Positions 121 to 57,026 of a DNA stretch of 64,000 nucleotides are shown in pieces (the first letter of the stretch is position 1; every line of letters begins with the position of its first letter). The DNA is from Deltaproteobacteria bacterium. GTDB taxonomy: Bacteria; UBA10199; JACPAL01; JAHFST01. The stretch spans positions 62,001 through 126,000 of the forward strand of contig JAHFST010000010.1 of the NCBI GenBank assembly GCA_023265625.1, given 5' to 3'. A program made the translations under genes and the position numbers. Under the pieces are notes generated by a model, which saw nothing but the letters and a program-made list of their open reading frames with translations, did not search any database and was not told the DNA's origin.

Positions 121-121
121 T

Positions 122-1849: not shown

Positions 1850-1851
1850 TT

Positions 1852-1926: not shown

Positions 1927-1944
1927 GGAAAAATTGACGCAAAT

Positions 1945-3153: not shown

Positions 3154-3168
3154 CAGGTTGATAAAACG

Positions 3169-4141: not shown

Positions 4142-4142
4142 T

Positions 4143-4448: not shown

Positions 4449-4449
4449 T

Positions 4450-4532
4450 TCCCTCTCCTTACAAAGGAGAGGGTTAGGGAGAGGTCACGAGGCTCAGGAC
4501 CTCCCCCAGCCCCCTCCTTTGTAAGGAGGGGG
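4450..4532. repeat. Family B palindromic repeat between nuoK1 and nuoL1
   Basis: An element of about 83 bp whose first half carries CCCTCTCCTTACAAAGGAGA and whose second half ends CCTCCTTTGTAAGGAGG. It therefore contains two short hairpins and an overall inverted symmetry. An almost identical copy lies at 47058-47143 between nuoF and nuoG of cluster 2. A diverged copy is inside a coding region at 19621-19702. Confidence 0.85.
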
Positions 4533-4550
4533 AGAACAGGTAAGTTTTCT

Positions 4551-6578: not shown

Positions 6579-6597
6579 TTAGGAAATAGGAGATATT

Positions 6598-8100: not shown

Positions 8101-8103
8101 AAC

Positions 8104-38070: not shown

Positions 38071-38430
38071 CTACTTTTTTGCCAGATTGATTTCCACCAC
38101 GCCGGAGGGGAGGTTTTTTTGTTTGATGGTGTATTGTTCGCCCAAGCTGGTGGTGCATTTTTCAATAAAACTGGCGGGTGTGGAATTAAACTCCATTCCC
38201 AAGGTGATGAGGTTGGGGGATTCGCTTAAGACCTGGATTTTTTCGACGCCTTCAATTTGTTTCAGCTGGTTTCGGGTTTCTCGGTAGTTGCGGTAGGATG
38301 ACACATTGACCAATATAACCCGTAAAGACGAGTGCCCTGAAGATTCTTCGGAAGCGGCCCAGACAGAAGATGTTAACGCGAGCATGAGAAGAGAAAAAAT
38401 AACTTTGAGAGTGGATGATTGATTAAACAT
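38071..38430 (-). CDS. Small secreted hypothetical protein
   Basis: 119 aa. Signal peptide (VIFSLLMLALTSSVWA) followed by a short polar linker and an alpha/beta domain of about 80 residues (LRVILVNVSSYRNYRETRNQ...). The pattern beta-alpha-beta-beta-alpha suggests a ferredoxin-like or FlgT/HMA-type small domain, but no family was recognised. Its start overlaps the preceding gene by 8 bases, so it is the third gene of the operon that begins with the sigma/anti-sigma fusion. Confidence 0.62.
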   Translation of the reverse strand: MFNQSSTLKVIFSLLMLALTSSVWAASEESSGHSSLRVILVNVSSYRNYRETRNQLKQIEGVEKIQVLSESPNLITLGMEFNSTPASFIEKCTTSLGEQYTIKQKNLPSGVVEINLAKK

Positions 38431-38614
38431 GACGAAAGGCCTCGATTCTTTCGATCTCCAGTATCACATAATCCTTGCGGTCGACAATCTTAATAGTGCC
38501 GTTTTTCATATCGATTTTCTCTAGGCGGCCCACATAAGCGAGCCCAAAGGCGATGACTTCAACGCGCTTTCCAAGGGAAGCCTTCAAACCTTTTGGCGTG
38601 ATTTCTCCCTGCAT
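38423..38614 (-). CDS. Small hypothetical protein, Sm-like barrel candidate
   Basis: 63 aa from the ATG at 38614 (MQGEITPKGLKASLGKRVEV). The core (EVIAFGLAYVGRLEKIDMKN followed by IKIVDRKDYVILEIERI) reads as five strands, like a small beta barrel of the Sm/Hfq or SH3 kind. The frame is open to 38743, but that part overlaps the sigma/anti-sigma gene and looks unstructured. It is co-oriented with and sandwiched between that gene and the secreted protein. Confidence 0.5.
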   Translation of the reverse strand: MQGEITPKGLKASLGKRVEVIAFGLAYVGRLEKIDMKNGTIKIVDRKDYVILEIERIEAFRHV

Positions 38615-38645: not shown

Positions 38646-40529
38646 TCAACGGGCTTGCGGGGTGGACACCCGGCAGGCGTTGAGTCTTTGGCGGCGAATG
38701 GATTCAATTTCCGAGGTGGGGCTTTCTTTGACTTGGAGTTCAATCTGTTGCTCCCCGTTTGGAGTTACGCGCAGGATGTGGAGGCCCTGTTGCGAGACCT
38801 GTTCCAGGGGAGAGATGGAACCTAAATTTTCAAATTCTTCGAGGGATACTGCATCAGGCCTATCCATGGGATCTAGCCGATCTATTTGGGGGCCTTGAGA
38901 ATTTGTCCCGGACCTTGCTTGGGCGATATCGGCGGCTTCTCTAGCCAGAGTGCGCTGGTTTTGAAAGAGCGGGGCGAGTTGTGCCCGGTGTTGGCTAAGG
39001 TATTCCTGGGAGATGGTGAATAGAAGTGTGGCATCAGGGTCGGATTCATCGAGCGTCGGATCATTTTCGTTGCTGAGATCCATCGTCGTGCTTGTCTCAG
39101 GCAAGTTAACGGCCGCTTGATTGGTTTCTTTTTTCCCTAAGCTTGTTAATAAATCCATGATGGCTCGATCGACAGGATTATTGGGGTCGAGTTGGCACAC
39201 AAGCATCGGGGTGACTTGGTTCTCGAAATGAGGTGTCGGATTTTTTTTCAGAGTCATAACTTGTGGTGGAGGTTGGTTCCATTGTTTCATGGGAAGGGCG
39301 GTGATGGGTTGTTCTGGAGCAGGGGGTGGTTGTGGAAGCATGACGGGCAAGGTTTCTGCTTGCTGGATGATAGGTGTTGGCAGAGGAAGCGCAGGAGGAG
39401 GGACGATGGGATCGGGCAGGATGGGATGAGGCACATTGGCTTGAGGCTGGGGTTGTGTAGGAGGTGGCGTGGGTTTTTTTTCTTGCTGAGATAGGGCAAA
39501 AGTGGCGCTGCTATCGTGACTCTTGTCGATTTCACCCAAGATGGTTGGCGGGGTATTTTTTTGATCCTGAAACGGCGTGATCACTATTGGTGGAAACGGG
39601 TTAGGAGAAGCAAGGTCATGGGTACCGGGTTCTGGAATTGATGGTGGTGAAGGTTGGGTGGGTAGTATTGGAATCGAAACGACGCCTGGGTTCTTATGAA
39701 GCGCCTCAGTCCCTACAGGAACCACCTGAGCGGGTACATATTTTTTAAGAAATTGGTGATACACAAAATACCCCGTGCCACCCAACAGTGCAAACGCGCC
39801 TATCGTGGCCACAATCATCCTGAGCCATCGGACGGGATTATCCATTTGTTGTCGCGCTTCCGTGACGACCTTCGTGATTACGTCCACGGGCGGCGAAATA
39901 GGGCTGCTTTGGCCCAACTCGAGCATGATCTGTTGCAGGGCATTGACCCGATCATGACAAAATGGGCAGGTAAATGTATGACGTTGCAAGGTGTGGCGTA
40001 AATTGGCCTCGAGTTCCGCCTCCAAAAAGTCGGTCATGACTTGATGGAGTTGGAGACAAGGCCCCTCCGGGATGCGTGTCGCGATGTCTTGGGACGCGGC
40101 CTTGAGCAGCGCATCCCGAAATATTATTTTAATGTGCGGCACGGGTTGTTCGACAATGGTGGTAATATTCTCCCAAGAAAAAGTGACCTGTAGCCGCAGA
40201 TAAATAATCTCACGCCCTTGGATAGGCAGTTCTTCAAGTTTTTGTTCCAGGGGGCTGGGATTGGTGATGGGGCGCGATCGGTAGCGGCTGCTCAGGCTAT
40301 GGGCTCTGTGGTAGAGCCAGGGGACAAAAGTGTTGCGCACGCTGCGTTTGCGGGAACTGGGAATTATTTCCAGAAAAAGTTGCGGAAAAATGCGGAGAAT
40401 TTCACTGTCCCGTTCGTTGAGCAGGATGAGGAAACTATAGAGAGCGACTTGGTATTTGACCAAGAGTTCGTTGAACCCGGATCGATCGCCCTTGCGGATG
40501 CGGGTGAGTAGCTCGGTATCGGTTGGCAC
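38646..40529 (-). CDS. ECF sigma factor fused to zinc-finger anti-sigma domain and periplasmic tail
   Basis: A 627-aa four-part protein. Residues 1-90 match sigma70 region 2 (LLTRIRKGDRSGFNELLVKY, FVPWLYHRAHSLSSRYRSR); residues 95-150 match region 4 (LEELPIQGREIIYLRLQVTF...). Residues 155-215 hold a zinc anti-sigma module with H-x3-C-x2-C (RHTFTCPFCHDRV). One membrane helix follows (WLRMIVATIGAFALLGGTGY), then about 360 mostly proline/glutamine-rich residues expected outside the cytoplasmic membrane, ending in a folded-looking acidic region. This would be a membrane-held sigma factor freed by cutting. GTG start. Divergent from the Rieske gene. Confidence 0.72.
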   Translation of the reverse strand: MPTDTELLTRIRKGDRSGFNELLVKYQVALYSFLILLNERDSEILRIFPQLFLEIIPSSRKRSVRNTFVPWLYHRAHSLSSRYRSRPITNPSPLEQKLEELPIQGREIIYLRLQVTFSWENITTIVEQPVPHIKIIFRDALLKAASQDIATRIPEGPCLQLHQVMTDFLEAELEANLRHTLQRHTFTCPFCHDRVNALQQIMLELGQSSPISPPVDVITKVVTEARQQMDNPVRWLRMIVATIGAFALLGGTGYFVYHQFLKKYVPAQVVPVGTEALHKNPGVVSIPILPTQPSPPSIPEPGTHDLASPNPFPPIVITPFQDQKNTPPTILGEIDKSHDSSATFALSQQEKKPTPPPTQPQPQANVPHPILPDPIVPPPALPLPTPIIQQAETLPVMLPQPPPAPEQPITALPMKQWNQPPPQVMTLKKNPTPHFENQVTPMLVCQLDPNNPVDRAIMDLLTSLGKKETNQAAVNLPETSTTMDLSNENDPTLDESDPDATLLFTISQEYLSQHRAQLAPLFQNQRTLAREAADIAQARSGTNSQGPQIDRLDPMDRPDAVSLEEFENLGSISPLEQVSQQGLHILRVTPNGEQQIELQVKESPTSEIESIRRQRLNACRVSTPQAR

Positions 40530-40618
40530 AGACGCATTCTAGCAAAAATAGGGTCAAATTTCTCTTGAAAAGACTTGGGGTGAACCCTATATCCAAAAAA
40601 CCATAAGGAGAAAAATCT

Positions 40619-43109: not shown

Positions 43110-43604
43110 ATGGCACTCAAAGACATCTTTGCCGGTGCAGTGGTGACCACCAAGCTCAAGGAAGTGGTGGCTTGGGGGCGGAAGAATTCGCTTTGGCCGA
43201 TGCCTTATGCCACGGCGTGTTGCGGCATTGAGTTTATGGGGACGGTTTCGTCGTATTTTGACATCTCGCGTTTTGGGGCCGAGCTGGTGCGGTTTTCGCC
43301 GCGGCAGTGTGATTTGTTGATTGTGTTGGGGACGATCAACTACAAGCAGGCGCCGATCCTGAAAAAATTCTACGATCAGATGTGTGAGCCCAAGTGGGTG
43401 ATCTCGGCGGGGGCCTGCGCCTCGTCCGGGGGGTTTTACAACAACTACAGCGTGGTGCAGGGGATCGATGAAATTATTCCGGTGGATGTTTATGTCCCGG
43501 GTTGTCCGCCGGCGCCCGAGGCGATTTTACATGCGGTGCTTAAAATACAGGAAAAGATTGATTCGGAAGCCAGGAACACAGTAGAACTCCTCCCTGCTGT
43601 TTGA
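43110..43604 (+). CDS. nuoB: NADH-quinone oxidoreductase subunit B (cluster 2)
   Basis: 164 aa, complete. N2 ligands are all present: the tandem cysteines in [11 protein letters not shown] in [10 protein letters not shown], and C in [12 protein letters not shown]. The [15 protein letters not shown] start is standard for the family. It is the first gene of cluster 2; no nuoA precedes it, the space upstream holding an inverted repeat and an opposite-strand ATPase gene. Confidence 0.96.
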
Positions 43605-43605
43605 A

Positions 43606-44109
43606 ATGCCTCTTCCTATGATGATAGAACGTTTGCAGCAGGTTTTTCCCAACGAGGTCCTCTCCACCTACACCACGGCGGTGGGGGAGGCGGTCGCTGT
43701 GCTGCGTAAAGATAAATTGCATGACGTGCTGGCTTACCTGAATCAAAACTCGGATTGTCTCTGCGAGGCCTTGTTGGATCTGTGCGGTGTGGATTATCTC
43801 TCGCAGCTTAAGCCCGGAGAGGCGCGTTTTGAAGTTGTTTATCAACTTTATTCCTATCAACATAACCATCGCCTCCGGTTAAGGGTAAAGATTCCTGCCG
43901 AGGACATGACACTCCCCAGCGCGACAGATCTATGGGTGGGGGCTAACTGGTTTGAGCGGGAGGCCTTCGATATGTTTGGATTTCAATTCGCCGGTCATCC
44001 TCATTTAAAACGGATCTTGATGTTTGAAGGATTTGAGGGACATCCGTTGCGCAAGGATTACCCCATTGAGAAGAGACAAAAAATTCCATTTCCCCAGGAG
44101 ATTCCCTAA
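43606..44109 (+). CDS. nuoC: NADH-quinone oxidoreductase subunit C (cluster 2)
   Basis: 167 aa. Contains RFEVVYQLYSYQHNHRLRL, WVGANWFEREAFDMFGFQF and a C-terminal [11 protein letters not shown], the same blocks as the cluster 1 paralogue. It begins one base after nuoB2, and its stop codon shares a base with the nuoD2 ATG. NuoC is a structural component of the connecting part of the peripheral arm. Confidence 0.94.
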   Translation: MPLPMMIERLQQVFPNEVLSTYTTAVGEAVAVLRKDKLHDVLAYLNQNSDCLCEALLDLCGVDYLSQLKPGEARFEVVYQLYSYQHNHRLRLRVKIPAEDMTLPSATDLWVGANWFEREAFDMFGFQFAGHPHLKRILMFEGFEGHPLRKDYPIEKRQKIPFPQEIP

Positions 44110-45311
44110 TGGCGCAGGCCTTGATGACAGAAAATTCAGACCTGCCGACACAAAATATGGTCCTCAATATCGGGCCTTCTCATCCGGCGACCCACGGGGC
44201 GCTGCGCTTGTGTGCGGAGTTGGATGGGGAAACGATTGTGAAGGCGACCGTGGAGATCGGTTATCTCCATCGGGCCTTTGAGAAGCATACGGAGGTGAGC
44301 ACCTGGAGTCAGATTATCCCCTATACCGATCGACTCAACTACTGTTCGTCCTTGTTGAATAATGTGGCCTACGCGCGGGCCGTGGAGCAATTGCTAAGGA
44401 TAGAAATTCCAGAGCGGGCGGTGTTTATTCGGGTGATTGTCTCCGAACTGGCGCGGATCATGGATCACCTGATCTGTGTGGGGACGAGCGCGGTTGACTT
44501 GGGGGCGCTGTCGAATTTTTGGTATTTTTTCAACGTGCGCGAACAGATTTATGATTGGACCGAAAAACTCTGCGGTGCGCGCCTGACGACCAACTACACC
44601 CGGATCGGTGGCGTGATGCGTGATTTGGCCCCCGGCTTTGACGAAGGGATTCGCAAGGTTTTAAAGTCTTTAAATAAGGCCCTCAAGGATGTGACAAAGC
44701 TGTTGGGGAGAAATCGCATTTTTATGGATCGCACCCAAGGCGTGGGAATTGTCACGCGGGATGAGGCGATCAATTGGGGGTTTACGGGTCCCTGCCTGCG
44801 CGCGAGTGGTGTGCCCCATGATCTGCGCAAGGCCCAGCCCTACTATCACTACGATGAATTTGATTTTGAGATCCCGGTGGGCACGGTCGGGGACACCTAT
44901 GATCGATTGATGATTCGGATCGAAGAAATGAAGCAGAGTGTGAGGATTATCGAACAGGCCTTGGAAAAGATTCCGAGCGGACCGGTGATGGTCGATGATT
45001 CACGGGTGGCGCTGCCGCCCAAGGAAAAAGTTTATGGCTCGATCGAGGGATTGATGAACCATTTCATGCTTTTAACGGATGGCATCAAACCGCCCCAGGG
45101 GGAAATTTATTCGGCGATCGAGGCGGGCAACGGCGAGTTGGGATTTTATATTGTCAGTGATGGCGGCCCAAAGCCATATCGGATTCATTGCCGGCCGCCT
45201 TGCTTTCCTTTGACCCAGGCCTATGAAAGATTGGTGCAGGGGAGAATGATTGCGGATGCGATTGCGATATTGGGGAGTTTGAATATTGTGGTGGGGGAAT
45301 TGGATCGGTAA
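44109..45311 (+). CDS. nuoD: NADH-quinone oxidoreductase subunit D (cluster 2)
   Basis: 400 aa. LNIGPSHPATHGALRLCAEL starts the conserved region; VEIGYLHRAFEKHTE, RGSG-equivalent GPCLRASGVPHDLRK and the C-terminal IADAIAILGSLNIVVGELDR follow. It lacks hydrogenase CxxC pairs. Compared with cluster 1 NuoD (372 aa) it differs throughout, so the two clusters are old paralogues or of separate origin, not a recent duplication. Confidence 0.95.
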   Translation: MAQALMTENSDLPTQNMVLNIGPSHPATHGALRLCAELDGETIVKATVEIGYLHRAFEKHTEVSTWSQIIPYTDRLNYCSSLLNNVAYARAVEQLLRIEIPERAVFIRVIVSELARIMDHLICVGTSAVDLGALSNFWYFFNVREQIYDWTEKLCGARLTTNYTRIGGVMRDLAPGFDEGIRKVLKSLNKALKDVTKLLGRNRIFMDRTQGVGIVTRDEAINWGFTGPCLRASGVPHDLRKAQPYYHYDEFDFEIPVGTVGDTYDRLMIRIEEMKQSVRIIEQALEKIPSGPVMVDDSRVALPPKEKVYGSIEGLMNHFMLLTDGIKPPQGEIYSAIEAGNGELGFYIVSDGGPKPYRIHCRPPCFPLTQAYERLVQGRMIADAIAILGSLNIVVGELDR

Positions 45312-45316
45312 TTTAT

Positions 45317-45787
45317 ATGGCTGAATTTAGCGAAATTTCCAAAAAAGAGATCGAGGAAATTCTCAACCATTATCCGACCAAACAAGCAGCCCTGTTGCCC
45401 GTATTGTGGGTGGCCCAGGAACAATTTGGTTGGATTTCGGAAGGGGTGATGGACCTCGTGGCCCAAACGCTCGATATCTCTCCGGCCCATGTTTATGGCG
45501 TGGTGACTTTTTATACCATGTACTACCGCAAGCCGGTGGGCCGGTGTCATATCCAGGTGTGTCGAACCCTGCCCTGTGCCTTGATGGGCGCGGAGTCCAT
45601 CCTGGAACATTTGGAGAAAAAGTTGGGGATCAAAGAAGGGGAGACGACCCCGGACGGGCAATTCACCCTGTCTACCGTGGAATGTCTGGCCTCTTGCGGG
45701 ACGGCGCCAATGTTACGCTTGAATGAAGAGTACCGGGAAAATTTAACGCCGGAAAAGATTGATCAACTTTTGGCGGCATTAAAATAA
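45317..45787 (+). CDS. nuoE: NADH-quinone oxidoreductase subunit E
   Basis: 156 aa, thioredoxin-like [2Fe-2S] subunit carrying N1a in the NADH-oxidising module. The ligands are in CRTLPCALMG (C-x4-C) and CLASCGTAP (C-x3-C). QAALLPVLWVAQEQFGWIS and VYGVVTFYTMYYRKPVG are typical. Cluster 1 has no counterpart in the window. Confidence 0.95.
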   Translation: MAEFSEISKKEIEEILNHYPTKQAALLPVLWVAQEQFGWISEGVMDLVAQTLDISPAHVYGVVTFYTMYYRKPVGRCHIQVCRTLPCALMGAESILEHLEKKLGIKEGETTPDGQFTLSTVECLASCGTAPMLRLNEEYRENLTPEKIDQLLAALK

Positions 45788-45793
45788 AAAAAT

Positions 45794-47056
45794 ATGGATT
45801 ACGTTTTAACCAAAAATTTCAATGTCCCCGAGGCCTATCGTATCGATGTATATGAGCGCACCGGTGGCTATCAGTCTTTAAAGCGACTTTTTACGATGAA
45901 GCCCGTCGATGTCATTGAAGAGGTGAAGTCCTCCGGGTTGAGGGGGCGCGGTGGGGCGGGTTTTTCGGCCGGGCTTAAGTGGAGTTTTATTCCGAAAGAT
46001 GGGAAAAAAAACGTTTACCTGTGCGTGAACGCCGATGAGAGTGAGCCGGGGACTTTTAAAGATCGTTCTCTCTTGGAATTGGATCCGCATCGCTTAGTCG
46101 AGGGCGTGATTATCGCGGCGTATGCGATTGGCGCCAAGACGGCCTACATTTACATCCGCGGTGAGTTTGATCTGCCCCATACCCGCATTAAGGCGGCGGT
46201 CGCGGAGGCCTATCAAAAAGGTTATTTGGGGGAAAGCATCCTGCAGTCCGGTTTTGGACTGAATTTGTATGTGCATCGCGGGGCCGGGGCCTACATTTGC
46301 GGGGAAGAGACGGGTCTGATTGAATCGCTCGAGGGCAAGCGCGGTTATCCGCGGATCAAGCCCCCGTTTCCGGCGATCCAAGGGTTGTTTCAAAGTCCGA
46401 CGATTGTGAACAATGTGGAAACCTTATCGGTACTTCCTTATATCCTGATGGTCGGGGCCAATGCCTATCGCGCCATCGGCACGGAAAAGAGCACGGGGAC
46501 TAAATTATTTTCGGTGTCAGGTCCGGTGCAACGTCCGGGGGTTTATGAAGTCCCGATGGGGACGCCGCTGCGGCATTTTTTGCAGGAACAGGCCGGGGGC
46601 ATGTTGCCGGGCAAGGTGTTGAAGGCGGTCATTCCCGGAGGGTCCTCCATGCCGGTGCTCAATGCGCAAGAGGTGGAAGAGGTCAATCTGGATTATGAAT
46701 CCATGGCCTCGAAGGGATCGATGTTGGGGTCGGGCGGCGTGATTGTGATCCCGGAGGATTACTGCATGGTGAAGGCGCTCGCCAACCTCGGGCGGTTTTA
46801 TGCGCATGAGTCGTGTGGCCAATGTTCCCCGTGTCGCGAGGGGACCGGTTGGGCGGCCAAGGTCTTGGCCCGTCTCGAGGCCGGCAAAGGGGAGGCGGGC
46901 GATATTGATTTGTTGCTCGATATTGGGCGTAAGATGACGGGGGCCACGATTTGCGTCTTGGCGGATTCGTTGGCGATGCCGATGGCGAGTTTTATTAAAA
47001 AATTTAGGCCGGAGTTTGAGGAGCATTTGACGTTGAAAAAATGTCCAAAGGGGTAA
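45794..47056 (+). CDS. nuoF: NADH-quinone oxidoreductase subunit F
   Basis: 420 aa, the NADH- and FMN-binding subunit with cluster N3. The NADH-binding GLRGRGGAGFSAGLKW, the FMN-binding YLCVNADESEPGTFKDR, the GAGAYICGEETGLIESLEG loop and the ESCGQCSPCREGTGW cluster motif plus a later cysteine in GATICVLAD are intact. It shows the second cluster is of the NADH-dependent kind. Confidence 0.96.
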   Translation: MDYVLTKNFNVPEAYRIDVYERTGGYQSLKRLFTMKPVDVIEEVKSSGLRGRGGAGFSAGLKWSFIPKDGKKNVYLCVNADESEPGTFKDRSLLELDPHRLVEGVIIAAYAIGAKTAYIYIRGEFDLPHTRIKAAVAEAYQKGYLGESILQSGFGLNLYVHRGAGAYICGEETGLIESLEGKRGYPRIKPPFPAIQGLFQSPTIVNNVETLSVLPYILMVGANAYRAIGTEKSTGTKLFSVSGPVQRPGVYEVPMGTPLRHFLQEQAGGMLPGKVLKAVIPGGSSMPVLNAQEVEEVNLDYESMASKGSMLGSGGVIVIPEDYCMVKALANLGRFYAHESCGQCSPCREGTGWAAKVLARLEAGKGEAGDIDLLLDIGRKMTGATICVLADSLAMPMASFIKKFRPEFEEHLTLKKCPKG

Positions 47057-47057
47057 T

Positions 47058-47143
47058 TCCCTCTCCTTACAAAGGAGAGGGTTAGGGAGAGGTCACGAGG
47101 CTGAGGACCTCCCCCAGCCCCCTCCTTTGTAAGGAGGGGGGGA
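47058..47143. repeat. Family B palindromic repeat between nuoF and nuoG
   Basis: Nearly identical over more than 80 bp to the element at 4450-4532, including the TTACAAAGGAGAGGG and CCTCCTTTGTAAGG halves. One near-identical copy thus sits in each complex I cluster, 42.6 kb apart, although the flanking nuo genes have diverged strongly. Confidence 0.85.
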
Positions 47144-47152
47144 TAAAAAATT

Positions 47153-48691
47153 ATGCCAAAGATCAAAGTCGACAACATAGAGACCACCGTCCCCGATGGG
47201 ATCAATCTGATCGAGGCGGCCAAGTTGGTGGGGAAGGCGGTGCCGCATTATTGTTACCACAGCCAGCTCTCGGTGGCGGGCAATTGCCGGATGTGTCTGG
47301 TGGAGATTGAGAAACAACCCAAGCTGCAGATCGCCTGCAACACCAAGGTCCAGGAGGGGATGTCATTTTTTACCGAAAGCCCGAAGGTGAAGGAGGCTCA
47401 ACAATTTGTCCTCGAGTTTATTTTGGTCAATCACCCCATTGATTGTCCGGTCTGCGATCAGGCGGGGGAGTGCAAGTTGCAACAGTATTACATGAAGTAT
47501 GACGCTCGGCCTTCCCGGTTTGAGGAGACCAAGGTGCATAAGGAAAAGGCCATCGAATTGGGCCCCAATGTGATGCTCGACATGGAGCGTTGCATCCTGT
47601 GCAGCCGCTGCGTGCGTTTTTGCAAGGAGATCGCCGAGGAAGACCAGCTGTGCTTTTCCCAGCGGGGTGATCATACCATGTTGACCACTTTTCCGGATCG
47701 CCCGCTCGATAACCCCTACTCGGTCAATACCGTCGACATCTGTCCGGTCGGCGCCCTGACCAGCAAGGATTTTCGTTTTCAGCAGCGCGTTTGGTTTCTG
47801 AAGGGGGTGGAGACGATCTGCACCGGTTGTGCCACGGGTTGCAATGTGCGGATGGATCATAATCAGGGCAAGGTGTTCCGGCTCGTGCCGCGCGACAATG
47901 AGGCGGTCAACGAGGCCTGGATGTGCGACGAAGGTCGGCTGACCTACAAGCCGGTGAATGCGGAAAATCGTCTGCGCCATCCGCTGGTGAAGACGGCCGA
48001 AGGGTTGCGCGAGGTGCGAATGGAGACGGCCCTGGAAAAATTTGGCGAATTGCTGAAAAATATTTCGGGGCATGTTTTGCTGGGGATTGGTTCGGCGGAG
48101 TTCACCAATGAAGACAACTATGCCCTGATTCGGTTCCTCCAGGAAAATTTCCCGGTGCCTCATCTGGCCTACACGGCTCGTGAGGTGGAGTATCCCTCGC
48201 AGGATGATTATTTGATCTCAGCGGATAAAAATCCCAATCGGGCGGGCGTTACGGCCATGGGGATGAAGCCCCTCGCCTCGGAAGATCGCAAGTACCAATG
48301 CCTGATCGGTTTGGGACCCATCTCGGAATCCACACTGACGGCACTCTCCTTTGAGAAAGACCACAAGGTCATTGTTTTCGCGACCCATCGTGAGGCGTCG
48401 TTGGATTATGCCGATCTCGTTTTTCCGGTGGCCACTTTTGCGGAGTTGACGGGCACGATGGTGAACCGCCAGGGCCGGGTCCAGATGCTGCGGCCCGCTT
48501 TTGCCCCCCCGGGAGAGTCCAAAACGGTCTGGGAAATTTTGTCACAGGCCGCCCGCCTGATGTCCCGTGCCAAACCGGCCTATACCGCTCCCGAACAAGT
48601 TTTTGCCGATCTGGCGGAGCTGGTCCCCGCTTTTAAGGGATTGAATTACGAGTTGATCGGCAAACAAGGGGCGTTGCTCACAAAGCAATAA
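47153..48691 (+). CDS. nuoG: NADH-quinone oxidoreductase subunit G, short form
   Basis: 512 aa, shorter than the 680-900 aa of most NuoG. The N-terminus has the [2Fe-2S] N1b site (HYCYHSQLSVAGNCRMCLVE), the H-x3-C-x2-C N5 motif (HPIDCPVCDQAGEC) and the N4 motif (CILCSRCVRFCKEI...CPVGAL). An additional CTGCATGCNV stretch suggests the N7-type cluster. The molybdopterin-like C-terminal domain is reduced to about 270 residues. All electron-path clusters needed between NuoF and NuoI are present, yet the cluster has no nuoI. Confidence 0.92.
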   Translation: MPKIKVDNIETTVPDGINLIEAAKLVGKAVPHYCYHSQLSVAGNCRMCLVEIEKQPKLQIACNTKVQEGMSFFTESPKVKEAQQFVLEFILVNHPIDCPVCDQAGECKLQQYYMKYDARPSRFEETKVHKEKAIELGPNVMLDMERCILCSRCVRFCKEIAEEDQLCFSQRGDHTMLTTFPDRPLDNPYSVNTVDICPVGALTSKDFRFQQRVWFLKGVETICTGCATGCNVRMDHNQGKVFRLVPRDNEAVNEAWMCDEGRLTYKPVNAENRLRHPLVKTAEGLREVRMETALEKFGELLKNISGHVLLGIGSAEFTNEDNYALIRFLQENFPVPHLAYTAREVEYPSQDDYLISADKNPNRAGVTAMGMKPLASEDRKYQCLIGLGPISESTLTALSFEKDHKVIVFATHREASLDYADLVFPVATFAELTGTMVNRQGRVQMLRPAFAPPGESKTVWEILSQAARLMSRAKPAYTAPEQVFADLAELVPAFKGLNYELIGKQGALLTKQ

Positions 48692-48700
48692 GGAATATCT

Positions 48701-49954
48701 ATGGTTATTTTTATCGCCCTCGCCAAAATTATCATTATTCCCGTCCTCGTTTTAAATCTCATTCCGCTCTTGATTTGGATGGAGCGCAAAGGGGCGGCCT
48801 ATATTCAGGATCGGCGCGGGCCGAATCGGGCCAATATCTTGGGGATTCGGTTGGGGGGGATGGTGCATAATTTTGCGGATGTGATCAAGCTCCTCACCAA
48901 GGAAGAGAACCTGCCGGATGGGGCCAATCGGTTTTATTTTTACCTGGCGCCGTTTTTAGCGATGTTTGTCTCGTTTGTCACGGTGGCGGTGATCCCGTTT
49001 GGGGATGATGTGCATCTGGGCGACTTGGTGTTTAGTCTCCGGGTGACGGATGCCTCGGTGGGGATGCTCTACATCTTTGCGATTGTCTCCCTGAGTGTCT
49101 ACGGCGTGATGCTGGGCGGGTGGGCCTCCAATAGCAAGTTTTCGTTGTTGGGCGGGCTGCGGGTCGCCTCGCAGATGATCAGCTATGAGATTGCGCTGAG
49201 TTTGGCGGCGGTGAGTTTGTTTATGGTGACCGAATCGGTGGACCTTGGCACCATGGTGCGTGCCCAAGGCGAGCTGCCGTGGCATTGGAATTTTTTTCAC
49301 CAACCTTTGGCATTTCTGATTTTTTTGGTGGCGGCCTTTGCGGAGACCAACCGGAATCCCTTTGACCTAGCCGAGGGAGAATCGGAGATCGTGGGGTATC
49401 ACCTGGAATATTCCAGCATGAAGTTCGCGCTGTTTTTCATGGCGGAATATGCCGCCATTGCGGTGTCGTCGGCCATTTTAGTGACCCTGTTTTTTGGGGG
49501 TTGGCAGATCCCCGGATTCTCGACTGAGACATTGTTGCAGGGCGGGGAATTTTATTTGAAGAACGTAGGGTTGGGCGTGGCGGCTTTTTCGGCATTGACG
49601 GGATTGGTTTTGCTGACCCAGTATCGGCCCGGGAAAAACGGTGATCTGCGTGACTACGAAGTCCTGGTCCTGGGGATTCCCGCCCTCTTGGCGGGGTTGG
49701 GTCTTGGGGCTTATTTGATGTGGATGGGGCTCCCGCCGTTGGCGGATTGGGTTGCGCCGGTTTTTGTGGCGGCCTTGCAAGCGGCCTGTTTTTTATTCAA
49801 GGTGTTGTGCTTTTGTTTTTTCTTTGTTTGGGTTCGATGGACTTTGCCTCGGTTCCGCTATGACCAAGTGATGAGTTTTGGCTGGAAGGGGATGTTGCCG
49901 ATTGCGTTGGCCAATATCCTGGGCACGGGAATTTATCTGCTAATTCGTGGTTAA
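48701..49954 (+). CDS. nuoH: NADH-quinone oxidoreductase subunit H (cluster 2)
   Basis: 417 aa, polytopic. WMERKGAAYIQDRRGPNRAN near residue 30, GWASNSKFSLLGGLRVASQM near residue 145, and the ETNRNPFDLAEGESEIVGYH acidic loop mark it as NuoH. It differs from the cluster 1 protein by an inserted segment of about 40 residues (LLTQYRPGKNGDLRDYEVLV) before the last helices. It ends 3 bases before the opposite-strand gene. Confidence 0.94.
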   Translation: MVIFIALAKIIIIPVLVLNLIPLLIWMERKGAAYIQDRRGPNRANILGIRLGGMVHNFADVIKLLTKEENLPDGANRFYFYLAPFLAMFVSFVTVAVIPFGDDVHLGDLVFSLRVTDASVGMLYIFAIVSLSVYGVMLGGWASNSKFSLLGGLRVASQMISYEIALSLAAVSLFMVTESVDLGTMVRAQGELPWHWNFFHQPLAFLIFLVAAFAETNRNPFDLAEGESEIVGYHLEYSSMKFALFFMAEYAAIAVSSAILVTLFFGGWQIPGFSTETLLQGGEFYLKNVGLGVAAFSALTGLVLLTQYRPGKNGDLRDYEVLVLGIPALLAGLGLGAYLMWMGLPPLADWVAPVFVAALQAACFLFKVLCFCFFFVWVRWTLPRFRYDQVMSFGWKGMLPIALANILGTGIYLLIRG

Positions 49955-49957
49955 TCC

Positions 49958-51130
49958 CTAAGCAATGATCGAAACGACGTTACGTTTTGTGTAGCGTGAT
50001 TGGAAGCTCTTCTCGAGTTCTTTGACCTTGGTGGATCCGGACGTTTTTCCCTCAGAGTTCTGGCCCAAGATGACCTTTAGGTCCTGTAGCGACTGGTCTG
50101 TTTGCAAGGCGGTGCGCAGCTCTTTATCCTCATTGATGAGTTGGGCCAAGCCGCCATTTTTGCTGAGGAACTGAAAGGTCAGCGGCGATTGTTCGCCTAT
50201 TTTTGTTTTGGCCTGATAGGCCGTGACATCGCGGATGATCATTGAGGCATTGAAATTGTCGCTTAATCCCTTGTTGCTTAGATTGTATTCGGGATGGTCT
50301 TTTAAAAATTGACCGGCCCGCGGCTGGTCAGTGATGTAATCTCCGGCCGCGACAAACTCGGCGATGTTCACATTGTCCGCGAAAAAACTCTTGGGATAGG
50401 CGCCTGAACCCGCGGCGTTGGCGGCAGCGGTACTGACGTAGTTATCAAAAATAGATTTGCTAGTCGGGCTGTCGACTTGGGACTTGAAGTTACGAGCATT
50501 GGTGTCGGCGTTGGCCGGAACCGTGTATTGATACACCTCATCAAGGTGGCTCAGTAGGTAAATCGCGGCCTTCGGGTGAGCCTGAAAGAATCCCTTGTCA
50601 TTTAACGGAGAGCTGGAATCAAACAGGGCCACGGCCTTGTCCGCCAAGAGGCTAAAGACATGGTCTTCCGGTGCCGGAGTCGAGCGGGCCAGCTTGCTGG
50701 CAAAGTCACTATCTTGATTGAGACGATCTTGAATGCCACCCGTGTTGAGCACGATCAAGGATGCGATCGCCGGTTTTGCCTTCAGGTCGGCCTCACTGAA
50801 TTCCTTGGCGGCATCCCCCTTGAGGAGTGCATGGGCCGTTTGCGCGATGACGCGCACGAGGTCGTCGCGTCCCGTGACCGTGGTTTTGGCGAGATTCTCC
50901 CGGGCCTGATCGGATTTGCCGATGACATACAGCAGGTCGTTATTGGCGGCCTTGAATTTTTCCAGGTCCTGTCCCGGGAGCGCCGAAAGTGAATCCACTC
51001 CCAAACCGGCTGTTTGGAACGGGCTCGTTCTCGAGGCACTTCGTGTCTGTACCGAGCTCCGCCCCGATCGCGCTGGACGATAGCTAACGATCTCGGCGCC
51101 CCCCGGACCTTGGATCCGCAGTTCAGCCAT
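49958..51130 (-). CDS. Hypothetical protein inserted antisense at the nuoI position
   Basis: 390 aa, function unknown. It contains no cysteine, so it cannot be a NuoI. The N-terminal 45 residues are low complexity (GRSSVQTRSASRTSPFQTAG); the rest is helical with a repeated style of segment (FFQAHPKAAIYLLSHLDEVY, FLKDHPEYNLSNKGLSDNF). No signal peptide or membrane helix. ATG 51130 is used, with a GTG at 51133 as alternative and a GGGGGAG sequence just upstream. It lies between nuoH and nuoJ, exactly where nuoI usually sits, in opposite orientation, convergent with nuoH and divergent from nuoJ. Confidence 0.62.
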   Translation of the reverse strand: MAELRIQGPGGAEIVSYRPARSGRSSVQTRSASRTSPFQTAGLGVDSLSALPGQDLEKFKAANNDLLYVIGKSDQARENLAKTTVTGRDDLVRVIAQTAHALLKGDAAKEFSEADLKAKPAIASLIVLNTGGIQDRLNQDSDFASKLARSTPAPEDHVFSLLADKAVALFDSSSPLNDKGFFQAHPKAAIYLLSHLDEVYQYTVPANADTNARNFKSQVDSPTSKSIFDNYVSTAAANAAGSGAYPKSFFADNVNIAEFVAAGDYITDQPRAGQFLKDHPEYNLSNKGLSDNFNASMIIRDVTAYQAKTKIGEQSPLTFQFLSKNGGLAQLINEDKELRTALQTDQSLQDLKVILGQNSEGKTSGSTKVKELEKSFQSRYTKRNVVSIIA

Positions 51131-51172
51131 CACTCCCCCCTATTACGTCTGAACGGCATTTTGCTAAAAGAC

Positions 51173-51200
51173 TTGAGAAAAAAATGCATTCGGGTAAAAA
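51173..51200 (+). promoter_or_regulatory. Candidate promoter for nuoJKLMN of cluster 2
   Basis: TTGAGA (51173-51178), 16-nt spacer, TAAAAA (51195-51200), 11 bases before the nuoJ ATG. A promoter here would be needed if transcription from nuoB2 does not pass through the 1.2-kb antisense gene. The match is modest. Confidence 0.3.
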
Positions 51201-51210
51201 CACTTAACCC

Positions 51211-51726
51211 ATGGAGCTTATTCTCTTTTACCTCTTTGCTGGCGTTGTGGTCAGCTCCGCCCTGCTGGTTGTCTTTTTTAGAAATCCATTGTCGTCGGCT
51301 CTGGCCCTGGTGGCCGCGTTGTTTGGAGTGGCGGCCCTCTTTGTGTTGCTCCATGCCTATTTCTTAGCGGCGATCCAGGTCCTGGTTTATGCGGGGGCCG
51401 TGATGGTGCTGTTTATTTTTATCATCATGATGATGAACTTGGATTTGACCACCTTGCGTAAGATTCACTACTCCTTCACCGGGATTGTCGGGGCCCTGTT
51501 TGGCAGCTATCTGGCGGCCATCTTGATCCTACGCTTGGGTTATTTTTCGGAAGCGGCGCGGGCCACCCCGGAGGATTACGGATCGATCGCCTCGATCGGC
51601 AAGCTGTTGTTTACCGATTATCAGGTCCCCTTTGAGATGACCTCGTTGTTGCTCCTGGTGGCCATCATCGGGGCGGTGATGTTGGCCAAAAAAGAGGCGA
51701 AACACGCGGCGAGGCAGGCCCCATGA
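51211..51726 (+). CDS. nuoJ: NADH-quinone oxidoreductase subunit J (cluster 2)
   Basis: 171 aa. LAAIQVLVYAGAVMVLFIFI is the conserved helix 3; MTSLLLLVAIIGAVMLAKKE ends the membrane part. It is longer at the C-terminus than the cluster 1 copy (basic KHAARQAP tail) and overlaps nuoK by 4 bases. Confidence 0.93.
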   Translation: MELILFYLFAGVVVSSALLVVFFRNPLSSALALVAALFGVAALFVLLHAYFLAAIQVLVYAGAVMVLFIFIIMMMNLDLTTLRKIHYSFTGIVGALFGSYLAAILILRLGYFSEAARATPEDYGSIASIGKLLFTDYQVPFEMTSLLLLVAIIGAVMLAKKEAKHAARQAP

Positions 51727-52025
51727 TCACCCTGGCCCATTATTTGACGCTGGCGGCGCTGCTTTTTTCCATTGGGGTGGTGGGCGTGGTGTTGCGCCGC
51801 AATGCCCTGATCATCCTCATGTCCATCGAGTTGATGTTAAACGCCGTCAACCTGACTTTTTTGTCGTTTGCCTACTATCGGCAGCAACTCTCCGGCCAGG
51901 TGTTGGTTTTTTTCGTCATCGCCCTGGCGGCGGCCGAGGCCACGGTTGGTTTGGCGATCTTGGTGGCGATCTTTAAGAAGCAAGGCACGGTGGATGTGGA
52001 TGAGTTAAGGTTCTTACGAGGCTAG
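51723..52025 (+). CDS. nuoK: NADH-quinone oxidoreductase subunit K (cluster 2)
   Basis: 100 aa, three helices. Both conserved glutamates are seen: IELMLNAVNLTF in helix 2 and AAAEATVGLAIL in helix 3. ATG overlaps the nuoJ stop (ATGA). Sequence is clearly distinct from the cluster 1 paralogue outside these motifs. Confidence 0.94.
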   Translation: MITLAHYLTLAALLFSIGVVGVVLRRNALIILMSIELMLNAVNLTFLSFAYYRQQLSGQVLVFFVIALAAAEATVGLAILVAIFKKQGTVDVDELRFLRG

Positions 52026-52029
52026 TTTT

Positions 52030-54009
52030 ATGGAACAATTAGTTTTTGGCCTGCCGCTGGGGTTTTTTGCGGCGCTGATACCGGCGTTGCCGCTGGTGGG
52101 GGCCCTGTGCAACGGTCTGATTGCCTTGATCTGTCGGAATCAACGCCGCGACGTGCCTGTGGCCTTGGTGAGTGTGATTGGGGTGGGGTTCCCGGTGCTG
52201 GCCTTTATCGTGGTCGTCGTGATGGCGCAGATATTTTGGAATCCCGCCACGGGTTTTGCCACGGCCCCGCTGTGGGACTGGATGAACGTCGGAGCCTTGC
52301 GCGTCCCGGTCTCGTTTCATATTGATCGCCTCTCTCTGGTGATGTGCCTGGTCGTCACCGGGGTTGGCTCCCTGATCCATTTTTATTCGATCGGTTATAT
52401 GGGCGAAGATCCGGGCTACGCGCGCTACTTTACCTTTCTCAATCTCTTCCTGTTTGCCATGTTGATGCTCGTGTTGGGCGCTAATCTCCCCCTGCTCTTT
52501 TTGGGATGGGAGGGGGTCGGGCTCTGTTCCTACTTTTTGATTAGTTTTTGGTTTACCGATCTGGAAAAGGCCGTGGCCGGTAAAAAGGCCTTTATCGTGA
52601 ACCGCATTGGTGATTTTGGATTTTTGCTGGGCATTTTTCTGCTCTACAGTCATTTGGCCGCGAAGGGGGGCGATACGGGGGGAGGGATGCTCAGTTTTGA
52701 AACCCTGCAAGCCTCGCGCGGGAATCTCTATCTGATTGCCACCCCGGTGGCCTTGTTGCTGTTTCTCGGCGCGGTGGGCAAATCCGCCCAAATCCCGCTC
52801 TATATCTGGTTGCCGGATGCGATGGCCGGTCCGACGCCGGTCTCCGCGTTGATCCATGCCGCCACGATGGTAACGGCGGGTGTTTATATGATTGCCCGGC
52901 TTCATTTTATCTACACCCTCTCGCCCCTGGCCATGCAGGTGGTGGCGACGGTCGGGGTGACGACGGCGTTTTTTGCGGCGGTGATTGCGCTGGCCCAGAC
53001 CGATATCAAAAAAGTTTTGGCTTATTCAACGATCAGCCAGCTGGGTTTTATGTTTTTGGCCCTGGGAGTGGGGGCATTTTCCGCCGCCATCTTCCATTTG
53101 GTGACCCACGCCTTTTTCAAGGCCTGTCTCTTCTTGGTGGCGGGTTCCGTGATCCATTCCATGCACGGCGAACAGGACATGTGGAAGATGGGGGGGCTGC
53201 GGCATAAGATGAAGATTACCTTTTTGACGGCGCTATGTGCCGTCTTGGCGATTGCCGGGATCGTCCCCTTTGCGGGTTTCTTCAGCAAGGATGCGATCCT
53301 GTGGCAGACCTTTGCCACCGGTCATAAGATTTTGTGGGCCTTTGGCTTGGCCACGGCGGGTATGACGGCGTTTTATATGGGGCGGTTTTTGGCCCTGACT
53401 TTTTTGGGATCGTCCCGGTTGGATCCCGAGCATAAACACCACCTGCACGAATCGCCTTTTTGGATGACGATCCCGCTGGTCTGCTTGGCCCTGCTATCCT
53501 TGGTGGGCGGGTGGGTGGGGGTACCAGAGGCCCTGAAGGGGAATGACCTGTGGCTCCATTGGTTTGCCCCCTTGTTTCCCTATGAAGAATTTTATCTCCT
53601 GTTGGAGAAAAAGGGCCATGGTTGGGAATTGATTCTTTCTGCGCTCACCTTGTTGGTGAGCTTTCATCTGGGGCTCTTCGCCCTGATCCTCTACGGCCAG
53701 AAGCCGCGCTTGATGGCCAAATGGGTGGAGGAACGCATCGCCTGGGTCAATCGCCTGGCCCTCCAGAAATTTTATGTCGATGAAATTTATCAGGCTCTGA
53801 TCATCCGCCCGGTGCGCTGGTTCTCCGAGACGGTCCTGTGGCAATTTTATGATCGCAAGGTCGTGGATGGCTTGGCGGTGCACGGTACTGCCGAGACGGT
53901 GGGTTTGTTGAGCCGGGTGTTTGCCCTGCTGCAGAATGGGTCGATCCAAAGTTATGTGTTATTTTTTATCATTGGCGTGGTGATTGTCATGGGGGCGTTG
54001 ATTTTTTAA
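52030..54009 (+). CDS. nuoL: NADH-quinone oxidoreductase subunit L (cluster 2)
   Basis: 659 aa. Shows GWEGVGLCSYFLISFWF, GKSAQIPLYIWLPDAMAGPT, SALIHAATMVTAGVYM and KKVLAYSTISQLGFM, plus the C-terminal extension (LQKFYVDEIYQALIIRPVRW) with the lateral helix. The core motifs match cluster 1 NuoL closely; the termini do not. The nuoM start directly abuts its stop. Confidence 0.95.
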   Translation: MEQLVFGLPLGFFAALIPALPLVGALCNGLIALICRNQRRDVPVALVSVIGVGFPVLAFIVVVVMAQIFWNPATGFATAPLWDWMNVGALRVPVSFHIDRLSLVMCLVVTGVGSLIHFYSIGYMGEDPGYARYFTFLNLFLFAMLMLVLGANLPLLFLGWEGVGLCSYFLISFWFTDLEKAVAGKKAFIVNRIGDFGFLLGIFLLYSHLAAKGGDTGGGMLSFETLQASRGNLYLIATPVALLLFLGAVGKSAQIPLYIWLPDAMAGPTPVSALIHAATMVTAGVYMIARLHFIYTLSPLAMQVVATVGVTTAFFAAVIALAQTDIKKVLAYSTISQLGFMFLALGVGAFSAAIFHLVTHAFFKACLFLVAGSVIHSMHGEQDMWKMGGLRHKMKITFLTALCAVLAIAGIVPFAGFFSKDAILWQTFATGHKILWAFGLATAGMTAFYMGRFLALTFLGSSRLDPEHKHHLHESPFWMTIPLVCLALLSLVGGWVGVPEALKGNDLWLHWFAPLFPYEEFYLLLEKKGHGWELILSALTLLVSFHLGLFALILYGQKPRLMAKWVEERIAWVNRLALQKFYVDEIYQALIIRPVRWFSETVLWQFYDRKVVDGLAVHGTAETVGLLSRVFALLQNGSIQSYVLFFIIGVVIVMGALIF

Positions 54010-55542
54010 ATGGATATTTTTCGCGATCATCTGCTGACTTGGATCATCTTTAGTCCCCTCCTGGGCCTGGTGCCGCTGTTCCTGTTTCCGAGTGGTCGGG
54101 AGAAACAATTAAAGGGCGTGGTGTTGGCCCTTTCGCTCATTCCCTTGGGATTCTCTCTCTGGCTCTTTGCCAGTTTTCAGGGCACCGGCGCTTATGAGTT
54201 TCAAGAAATGGTCCCTTGGATGCGCGGTTACCAGGCGGCTTATCAGGTGGGGGTCGATGGTTTTAGCTTATTGTTAATCTGCCTGACCACGTTTCTCCTC
54301 CCACTGGTCCTATTGGCCACCTGGAATGATGTGCATCGCAACGTCAAAGGGTATCTGTTTTTCTTTCTGTTGCTGGAGACCGGGATTTTGGGGGTTTTTT
54401 CCGCCCTCGATTTGCTCCTGTTCTACGTTTTTTGGGAGGCGGCGCTGATCCCGATGTATTTCCTGATCGGGATCTGGGGCGGCGAAGAAAGGATCTATGC
54501 CTCCATCAAGTTTGTCCTCTATACCATGGTGGGCAGCCTGCTCATGTTGGTGGCGATCCTCTATCTCTATTTTGCCGCGGGGCATTCTTTTTATTGGGGC
54601 GATATGGCCGCGCTTCACCTGCCTCGGATGACGCAGATCGTTCTTTTTGCGGCCTTCGGATTGGCCTTCGCCATCAAGGTCCCGCTGTTTCCGTTTCATA
54701 CCTGGTTGCCGGATGCCCACGTCCAGGCCCCAACCGGTGGGAGTGTGATCCTGGCCGGGGTGTTGCTCAAGATGGGGACCTACGGTTTTGCGCGCTTTGC
54801 GATCCCGTTTTTTCCGGAGGCGGTTCGAGCCCTGGGTCCGCTCTTGGCGGTGCTTTCCGTGATCGGAATTGTCTACGGTGCCCTGGTCTCGATGGTCCAG
54901 GTCGATATGAAAAAATTGGTGGCCTATTCGTCCGTGTCCCATTTGGGCTTCGTGGTCTTGGGGCTTTTTTCCCTCAATGCGCAAGGCGTCTCCGGGGCGA
55001 CCCTGCAAATGATCAACCATGGGCTCTCGACCGGGGGACTCTTTTTCTTGGTGGGGATGTTGTATGAACGACGCCACACCAAGCTGATCGCCGATTTTGG
55101 CGGTCTCGCCACCTCGATGCCGCTCTACAGCACCTGTTTTTTTATCATGCTGTTTTCTTCCATCGCCTTGCCCGGCACGAACGGCTTCATTGGAGAGTTT
55201 CTGATCCTGTTGGGTTCCTATCAAACCCATCCCATCCTCACGACGGTGGCCACTTCGGGTGTGATTTTTGCCGCTATCTACATGCTCTGGATGGCGCAGC
55301 GGGTCTTTTTAGGCAAGGTGACTCCTAAAAATCAAAATATTGCCGATCTATCGCTGCGCGAGGGCGTGGTCTTATTGCCCATCATCGTGCTGATCTTCTG
55401 GATCGGCTTCGCCCCAGGGTTTTTGTTGGATAAAATCAACCCGACGACGGAGGTTTTTTTAAAAACCAAAACCGAAAAAATCTCGATTCCTCCCTCTCCC
55501 GTAACGGGAGAGGGCCGGGGTGAGGGTGGAGACACCAATTAA
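54010..55542 (+). CDS. nuoM: NADH-quinone oxidoreductase subunit M (cluster 2)
   Basis: 510 aa. FYVFWEAALIPMYFLIGIWG, FPFHTWLPDAHVQAPTGGSV and KKLVAYSSVSHLGFVVLGLF identify NuoM. The C-terminal 18 or so residues (IPPSPVTGEGRGEGGDTN) are encoded by an inserted palindromic repeat rather than by family sequence; the preceding TEVFLKTKTEK already ends the conserved part. It overlaps nuoN by one base. Confidence 0.95.
   Translation: MDIFRDHLLTWIIFSPLLGLVPLFLFPSGREKQLKGVVLALSLIPLGFSLWLFASFQGTGAYEFQEMVPWMRGYQAAYQVGVDGFSLLLICLTTFLLPLVLLATWNDVHRNVKGYLFFFLLLETGILGVFSALDLLLFYVFWEAALIPMYFLIGIWGGEERIYASIKFVLYTMVGSLLMLVAILYLYFAAGHSFYWGDMAALHLPRMTQIVLFAAFGLAFAIKVPLFPFHTWLPDAHVQAPTGGSVILAGVLLKMGTYGFARFAIPFFPEAVRALGPLLAVLSVIGIVYGALVSMVQVDMKKLVAYSSVSHLGFVVLGLFSLNAQGVSGATLQMINHGLSTGGLFFLVGMLYERRHTKLIADFGGLATSMPLYSTCFFIMLFSSIALPGTNGFIGEFLILLGSYQTHPILTTVATSGVIFAAIYMLWMAQRVFLGKVTPKNQNIADLSLREGVVLLPIIVLIFWIGFAPGFLLDKINPTTEVFLKTKTEKISIPPSPVTGEGRGEGGDTN
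55492..55529. repeat. Palindromic repeat forming the 3' end of nuoM2
   Basis: CCCTCTCCCGTAACGGGAGAGGG hairpin followed by CCGGGGTGAGGGTGG. It is related in style to family B and supplies the last coding residues of NuoM2 and the stop region overlapping nuoN2. Confidence 0.7.
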
Positions 55543-57026
55543 TGGAAAAGTTGTTTAATACCGACTGGAATTTATTGTTACAACTAGCCCTTCCCATGGT
55601 GTTGTTGGCCGGGTTGGGCATGTCCCTGCTGCTTTGTTCCGCGTTTTTTCCGCGAGACCGGCCCAAGATTTTTCTTGGGGTGTTGTTGTTGGCCATCTTG
55701 GGCATCCTATTTTACACCTGGATGCAGTGGCGGGTGGTGGTGCCATTGTCGCAAGAAATGCTCCTGTTTGACCGGTTTTCTTACAGTCTGGATCTAATTG
55801 TGTTGGTGACCCTGTTGATCGTCTTACTCCTGTGCAGTAAGTATGTGTCTGCGGAAGGCACCCGGAGCAGTGAAGTTTATGCCTTGTTTCTTTTTGCCGT
55901 GGTCGGGATGATGTTGATCCATCATGGCGCGGACCTGATCGTGATCTTCCTGGGGATCGAGATCATGTCCTTGTCGAGTTATATCCTGACCGGTTCCAGA
56001 CGCGGGATCATCCGCTCCTACGAGGCGGCCATGAAGTATTTTATCCTGGGATCCTTTGCCTCTTGTTTTCTGCTCTATGGCATTGCCCTGGCCTATGGGG
56101 TGACGGGTTCAACCAGTTTGGCCTCGTTGCAATCATTGTCTTTGGCGGCGGATACTTCGGGGAATACCGTTTTGTTGACCATGTCGGTGGCCTTTCTCTT
56201 GGTGGGATTGGGGTTCAAGATTGCGGCGGTGCCGTTTCATCTCTGGGCCCCGGATGTCTATGAAGGCGCCCCGACCCCTGTCACGGCCTTCATGGCCGCC
56301 GGTGTCAAGACCGCGGCCTTTGCGGCCTTGCTGCGGATTGTATTGGCCCTGGGACATCTGCCGCAAATCCCCTGGATCCCCGTCTTGTGGATCCTCTCCG
56401 CCTTGACCATGACGATCGGCAACCTCGTGGCCTTACGCCAGACCCATATCAAGCGATTGTTGGCCTACTCCTCGGTGGCGCATGCGGGTTACCTATTGGT
56501 GGGGGTGACCGCGGCCCTGCAAAATAATACCCTTTCCGATGCGACTTTAGGCGGTGTGGTATTTTATCTCTTTGCCTATTCACTGATGACCTTGGGAGCC
56601 TTTGGGGTGGTGGTGGCGATGGGCCACCGCGGCGAGCAGGTGGAAGAATTGAGTGATTTTTCCGGGCTCTCGCAACGTCACCCGTTTTTGGCCGCGGCCT
56701 TGACGGTCTTTTTACTGTCCATGGCCGGGATCCCAGCCACCATTGGTTTTGCGGGAAAGTTCTACCTGTTTGCCGGGGCCGTCGAGGCCGGGTTTTATGG
56801 CCTGACGATCTTGGCGGTGTTGAACAGTGTTATTTCGGTTTATTACTACTTTGCCCCGATCATCAAAATGTACTTCCAGCCCCCTCGAGGCTATGAACTG
56901 CCGCCCTTGTCCTACCCCTTGCTGGCCGCGGTGTTTCTCTGTCTTTTTACCGTGCTGTATCTGGGGATCTTCCCATCCGATCTGTTCCTGATGGCGCGGG
57001 AATCGGTAAAAGAATTGATATTCTGA
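55542..57026 (+). CDS. nuoN: NADH-quinone oxidoreductase subunit N (cluster 2)
   Basis: 494 aa. FLGIEIMSLSSYILTGSRRG, KIAAVPFHLWAPDVYEGAPT and KRLLAYSSVAHAGYLLVGVT identify NuoN. Last gene of cluster 2; a family A repeat follows immediately. No nuoA follows here, unlike in cluster 1. Confidence 0.95.
   Translation: MEKLFNTDWNLLLQLALPMVLLAGLGMSLLLCSAFFPRDRPKIFLGVLLLAILGILFYTWMQWRVVVPLSQEMLLFDRFSYSLDLIVLVTLLIVLLLCSKYVSAEGTRSSEVYALFLFAVVGMMLIHHGADLIVIFLGIEIMSLSSYILTGSRRGIIRSYEAAMKYFILGSFASCFLLYGIALAYGVTGSTSLASLQSLSLAADTSGNTVLLTMSVAFLLVGLGFKIAAVPFHLWAPDVYEGAPTPVTAFMAAGVKTAAFAALLRIVLALGHLPQIPWIPVLWILSALTMTIGNLVALRQTHIKRLLAYSSVAHAGYLLVGVTAALQNNTLSDATLGGVVFYLFAYSLMTLGAFGVVVAMGHRGEQVEELSDFSGLSQRHPFLAAALTVFLLSMAGIPATIGFAGKFYLFAGAVEAGFYGLTILAVLNSVISVYYYFAPIIKMYFQPPRGYELPPLSYPLLAAVFLCLFTVLYLGIFPSDLFLMARESVKELIF

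Follow-up and report, generated by a model that had tools for sequence, protein, structure and literature searches.

One gene in the 64-kb stretch of DNA that we analysed (the window) encodes a protein in which a sigma-like part, a zinc anti-sigma domain, a membrane helix, and a Pro-rich tail form a single chain of 627 amino acids (38646..40529, minus strand). The sigma-like part has lost features of ordinary ECF sigma factors, the zinc domain is intact, and a homologous fusion is present in a second genome. We think that this protein is probably a membrane-anchored anti-sigma factor with a pseudo-sigma that fills its binding surface in cis, and not a sigma factor that is freed by proteolysis. 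From the sequences of two fusion proteins, a yardstick of 23 ordinary ECF sigma factors, and draft metagenome assemblies, we infer that the pseudo-sigma lies against the zinc domain and is not active in transcription.

The reading frame begins with GTG at 40529 and ends with a stop codon at 38646-38648. Its codon-position G+C is coding-like throughout its length, and the opposite (plus) strand has many stops across the gene. Residues 3-88 form a sigma2-like domain (40266..40523; this and the following features are all on the minus strand), as judged from NCBIfam and PDB matches, from alignment, and from residue counts. Residues 94-146 form a sigma4-like domain (40092..40250), as judged from a profile match to region 4 of SigD and from alignment, and residues 155-206 form a zinc anti-sigma (ZAS/ASDI) domain (39912..40067) with C158 and H184-x3-C188-x2-C191. 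Hydropathy identifies one hydrophobic helix, with the best 19-residue window starting at residue 238; we place the single membrane helix at residues 238-258 (39756..39818), within an NCBIfam anti-sigma match to residues 173-260. The stretch that follows, residues 261-440 (39210..39749), is Pro/Gln-rich in composition and presumably extracytoplasmic: residues 261-340 are 21% Pro, and residues 341-440 are 29% Pro and 13% Gln. The last 187 residues (441-627; 38649..39209) are not Pro-rich and belong to no known family, and residues 261-627 contain no significant Pfam domain. The open reading frame and its domains thus bear out the original prediction that a sigma part, an H-x3-C-x2-C module, a membrane helix, and Pro/Gln-rich residues are together in one chain. 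AlphaFold2, run on residues 1-261 as a single sequence, gave a mean pLDDT of 38.8, which is too low to support any reading.

Ahead of the gene is an extended -10-like sequence, TGCTAGAAT (40536-40544, minus strand), which ends 6 bases before the GTG, and there is no obvious ribosome-binding site. Judging from these two features, the mRNA of this gene may be leaderless. A scan for promoters and terminators gave matches that were rarer than in shuffled sequences, and nothing usable.

The sigma part can still be recognized. The NCBIfam model PRK12513 matches it with E = 1e-14 in two stretches, the best of which is residues 3-88, and a phmmer search against PDB matches AlgU/SigH and E. coli SigE to residues 3-84, so a sigma2 domain is detectable. 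A sigma4 domain is detectable too, weakly, from a two-row profile that matches region 4 of SigD (E = 0.001). On an ECF model specific to the class, the protein scores 61 bits (E = 5e-21). The expectation that profile searches would find both sigma regions and the zinc finger therefore held for the NCBIfam sigma and anti-sigma models and for the PDB sequences, but not for Pfam: Sigma70_r2, Sigma70_r4_2, and zf-HC2 had no match in the fusion even at E <= 1. Because the ordinary ECF sigma factors of the class pass the Pfam sigma models easily, this miss is informative.

Several features that ordinary ECF sigma factors share are missing. First, the Trp of region 2.3/2.4 and the LxxLP motif of region 4.1 are 26 residues apart in the fusion, as compared to 53-67 (median 62) in the 23 ordinary ECFs and 61 in E. 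coli SigE (counted from the alignment). So there is no sigma2-sigma4 linker that could run through the polymerase. Second, where ordinary ECFs have D-[IV]-x-Q-[ED]-x-F in region 2.2, the fusion has R-I-F-P-Q-L-F, which keeps none of the four conserved polar columns; the Gln that is found in all 23 ECFs is replaced by Pro. Third, the helix-turn-helix of region 4.2 keeps 1 of its 5 conserved polar columns, and its recognition helix is degraded (HIKIIFRDAL where xTVKSRxRYAL is usual). The fusion thus lacks the conserved polar residues for core binding in region 2.2 and most of those in the recognition helix of region 4.2. Overall, it keeps 8 of the 19 polar columns that are conserved in ECFs, while ordinary ECFs keep at least 65% (median 95%) when each is left out in turn. 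Hydrophobic columns are 80% kept in the fusion and 75% kept in its relative from the second genome; the minimum for ordinary ECFs is 91%, so the sigma fold may itself be weakened in part.

The 61 bits on the class ECF model compare to 119-263 bits for ordinary ECFs (leave-one-out), although some of these 23 were retrieved with the fusion protein itself. Being fused does not by itself account for this low score, because a fusion with an intact sigma half scores much better. TRD_RS13910 (WP_012642865.1) from Thermomicrobium roseum has 436 amino acids and combines an ECF sigma, a zinc anti-sigma domain, one membrane helix, and a short outer part, but unlike our protein, its sigma is intact: Pfam's Sigma70_r2 matches with E = 6e-17, Sigma70_r4_2 is above the cut-off, the spacing is 61, and the score is 141 bits. 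This gene (L110:1456-2766) is annotated merely as "RNA polymerase sigma factor" and would be a good experimental comparator.

PDB entry 6dxo looked at first like a sigma factor with an equally short linker, but its natural homologues carry 25-27 more residues over the match, so it is no counter-example; most likely, the chain record is without the linker. The linker of SigL has 20 residues and is already fully extended (PMC6372665), and deleting the linker of SigH abolishes transcription (PMC6411747). Given that deletion result and the loss of the linker, of region 2.2, and of most region 4.2 residues, a sigma part that was cleaved off would probably be inactive. A short linker could be tolerated through an unusual contact with the polymerase.

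The zinc half is not degraded in this way. The NCBIfam anti-sigma match has E = 2.6e-5, and RsiW matches residues 160-224 weakly. The zinc motif and the upstream Cys are present and are invariant in both fusions, so the domain has both the signature of class I ZAS/ASDI domains (H-x3-C-x2-C with an upstream Cys or His) and profile similarity to them. On a ZAS model, the fusion scores 28.9 bits and its relative scores 41.5 bits, as compared to 14.8-67.8 bits (median 44.0, leave-one-out) for 21 other domains; because these were preselected by the motif C...H-x3-C-x2-C, the scores speak of normality among motif-bearing domains only. Since the zinc domain scores within the normal range, the degradation is limited to the sigma half.

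The second fusion is in a genome (G022) from another family of the same class. It has 578 amino acids, lies at L020:8915-10651 on the minus strand, and adjoins mnmE. The two fusions are reciprocal best hits, and the protein from G022 matches this gene alone in the window's genome. Its sigma half is more degraded than ours: the spacing from Trp to LxxLP is 22, the class ECF model gives 14 bits, and 6 of the 19 polar columns are kept. The heads of the two proteins are alike (relative to shuffles, z is 12.3 for the sigma part and 10.2 for the ZAS part), and the tails have no detectable alignment signal beyond composition (z = 0.2 and 1.0 relative to shuffles). A conserved C-terminal domain in the outer tail was suggestive by eye, but with z = 1.0 we rejected it. 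The shared fusion and the shared missing linker argue for one ancient event that has been retained since, and from these sequences the lost spacing is probably ancestral rather than a recent decay. About 2.3 kb downstream of the fusion in G022 are overlapping genes for an ordinary ECF sigma factor and a membrane protein (L020:5332-6575), which are a candidate client or a candidate sister pair.

The fusion is present in 2 of 46 genomes of the class. In other phyla (sets of 1, 132, 39, and 40 genomes), we found no uninterrupted fusion, as every match that spanned both domains ran through one or two in-frame stops. Among plasmid records, tblastn found one true fusion (the one from T. roseum) and one two-gene pair; a search of phages found no fusion; and a search of genome contigs for relatives of the whole fusion protein found none.

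How might such a gene have arisen? We propose that a gene for an ECF sigma factor and a gene for a membrane zinc anti-sigma factor, which formed an overlapping pair, became one gene when a stop codon was lost or by a small frameshift. The sigma half would then have lost the linker, along with the surfaces that it needs to engage RNA polymerase and promoter DNA, but would have retained most of its hydrophobic core, and the zinc anti-sigma half would have stayed normal. The outcome would be a sigma-like part that sits on the zinc domain of its own chain without transcribing. The route to a fusion appears to be short, because the class has pairs that overlap by a few bases and because pairs elsewhere are in frame and one stop apart. 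Specifically, genes for ordinary ECF sigma factors and membrane anti-sigma factors overlap by 4 bases in L021, L017, and L037 and by 8 bases in L051, which is from the window's own genome, and in another phylum a sigma and an anti-sigma share one frame with a single stop between them. The four pairs encode the same domains as the fusion does, but in adjacent genes, with an intact sigma and, in some of the tails, TPR-like repeats. Two-gene overlapping pairs are likely the ancestral state.

If the protein is an anti-sigma factor that is occupied by a pseudo-sigma, then there are two narrower accounts of what it does, and the likelihoods that we would assign to them overlap with that of the broader reading. 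The first is that the head is a frozen cytoplasmic anchor, with a purely structural role, and that the function lies in the Pro-rich outer tail. A degraded sigma half and a long tail in both fusions are what this account would lead us to expect, but it also predicts that the tails should be conserved, and it is the heads that are conserved between the fusions. We hold the structural account to be possible and no better than tentative.

The second account, which we consider unlikely, is that the pseudo-sigma caps the ZAS domain in cis until a signal on the extracytoplasmic tail opens the cap, and that the opened ZAS domain then captures or frees a real ECF sigma factor in trans. There is a parallel in PhyR, which has a sigma-like domain that does not transcribe and that engages the anti-sigma factor NepR (PMC8999054). 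A switch of this kind would bring that mimicry into a single membrane-bound chain, but the analogy is of function only, as PhyR is soluble, is fused to a response-regulator receiver, and has its partner in trans. An intact zinc domain next to a sigma half without transcription surfaces fits such a switch, as does the presence of other ECF sigma factors in the genome that might be clients (e.g., the one from L051), and mimicry of sigma factors is already established as a mechanism (PMC8999054). On the other hand, the client is still only hypothetical, the fusion has no response-regulator part, and the sequence does not tell a switch from a purely structural role. In the fullest version of this idea, one protein would be mimic, inhibitor, and sensor at once, and a signal on the tail would lead it to exchange its cis pseudo-sigma for a genuine ECF sigma factor; this is speculative, and we doubt it slightly more than the switch in general.

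The original prediction was that the sigma part is bound to the membrane until it is cleaved. The protein would then be a working single-chain ECF sigma factor, similar to ECF52, that its own zinc anti-sigma domain keeps at the membrane until regulated intramembrane proteolysis frees it. The results do not support this, and we think that it is quite improbable. Region 2 is still recognizable, and ECF52 and IutY, whose release by proteolysis has been proposed or shown, have the same order of domains. Against this reading, the linker is missing, conserved residues in regions 2.2 and 4.2 are lost, and the score is far under that of ordinary ECFs. The T. roseum fusion, with its normal linker and its matches to the sigma models, illustrates the difference. 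Both fusion genomes do encode a homologue of the M50 site-2-protease, but this family is near universal.

The architecture of sigma, zinc finger, membrane helix, and Pro-rich region is already known, so the suggestion that it is novel to have these in one chain must be dropped. ECF52 is defined by these parts in one chain (PMC5826349), ECF48 and ECF53 are similar (PMC5826349, PMC8999054), the T. roseum gene is laid out in this way too, and IutY is a characterized fusion of sigma and anti-sigma that is released by Prc and RseP (PMC8999054). ECF52 proteins such as SCO4117 of Streptomyces coelicolor share the order of parts with our fusion (PMC5826349, PMC8999054), as judged by published description. 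However, ECF52 has been described only from Actinobacteria, while genomes of the class that contains our fusion are titled Deltaproteobacteria bacterium in GenBank. ECF52 proteins end in a carbohydrate-binding domain, which Pfam does not find in residues 261-627 of the fusion, and their sigma acts in transcription, as indicated by knock-out phenotypes, whereas the sigma half of the fusion is without the linker and the core-binding residues. IutY of Pseudomonas putida (ECF243), which is of the FecI/FecR type, also has a sigma and a membrane anti-sigma in one chain, but its anti-sigma domain is a different one and it belongs to a cell-surface signalling system for iron.

It is very doubtful that the gene is in decay, with the fusion having inactivated a sigma/anti-sigma pair whose sequence is now drifting: decay would be in keeping with the lost sigma motifs, the rarity of the fusion in the class, and the lack of an obvious ribosome-binding site before the GTG, but frames of 627 and 578 codons are open in different families, and both fusions retain their zinc ligands. 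We give almost no credence to an artefact of assembly or a frameshift that joined two genes, because even though the assembly of the window's genome is a draft of 37 contigs, the fusion and its short linker recur in an independent genome, and codon-position G+C resembles that of coding sequence over the whole gene.

Downstream of the fusion, also on the minus strand, are a gene for a small Sm/SH3-like protein of 63 amino acids (38423..38614) and its usual partner, which encodes a small secreted protein of 119 amino acids with a signal-peptide-like N-terminus (38071..38430). The two frames overlap by 8 bases. They had been described as a small barrel-like gene and a secreted protein that overlap, which is correct, and as possible members of the same signalling operon, which the results do not support: the pair occurs across the class in other contexts and without the fusion, so it is not specifically the fusion's operon. 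The Sm-like gene is found in 29 of the 46 genomes and was beside a sigma fusion in none of the 13 loci that we read. The upstream neighbours of the pair vary and include a large membrane protein (in two genomes), a GpsA-like protein (in two), and others, with names that come from reading the sequences. In the window's genome, the pair may be co-transcribed with the fusion.

Sequence search finds the secreted protein in 6 genomes, including the window's, and a secreted ORF of similar size adjoins the Sm-like gene in further genomes. Across the class (window 38071-38614, minus strand; L078, L079, L080, L081, L082, L083, L084, L087, and L090), the pair consists of an Sm/SH3-like protein of 46-105 amino acids and then, often overlapping, a secreted protein of 110-190 amino acids. 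The consensus of the Sm-like protein is GKxVEVxAFGIxYxGxL, its matches to LSm are weak, and no curated family describes either protein. The pair is often near nuo or atp genes. The window itself contains two clusters of nuo genes for respiratory complex I (117-9576 and 43110-57026, both on the plus strand), which differ in gene arrangement.

Fusions of sigma and anti-sigma in one chain are usually read as sigma factors that await release by cleavage. Since the same order of domains can hold a sigma that appears to be dead, domain annotation alone is not sufficient to call the release of an active sigma factor. And if the zinc domain of this protein still binds a sigma factor, then it would add a membrane-bound, one-chain form to sigma mimicry.
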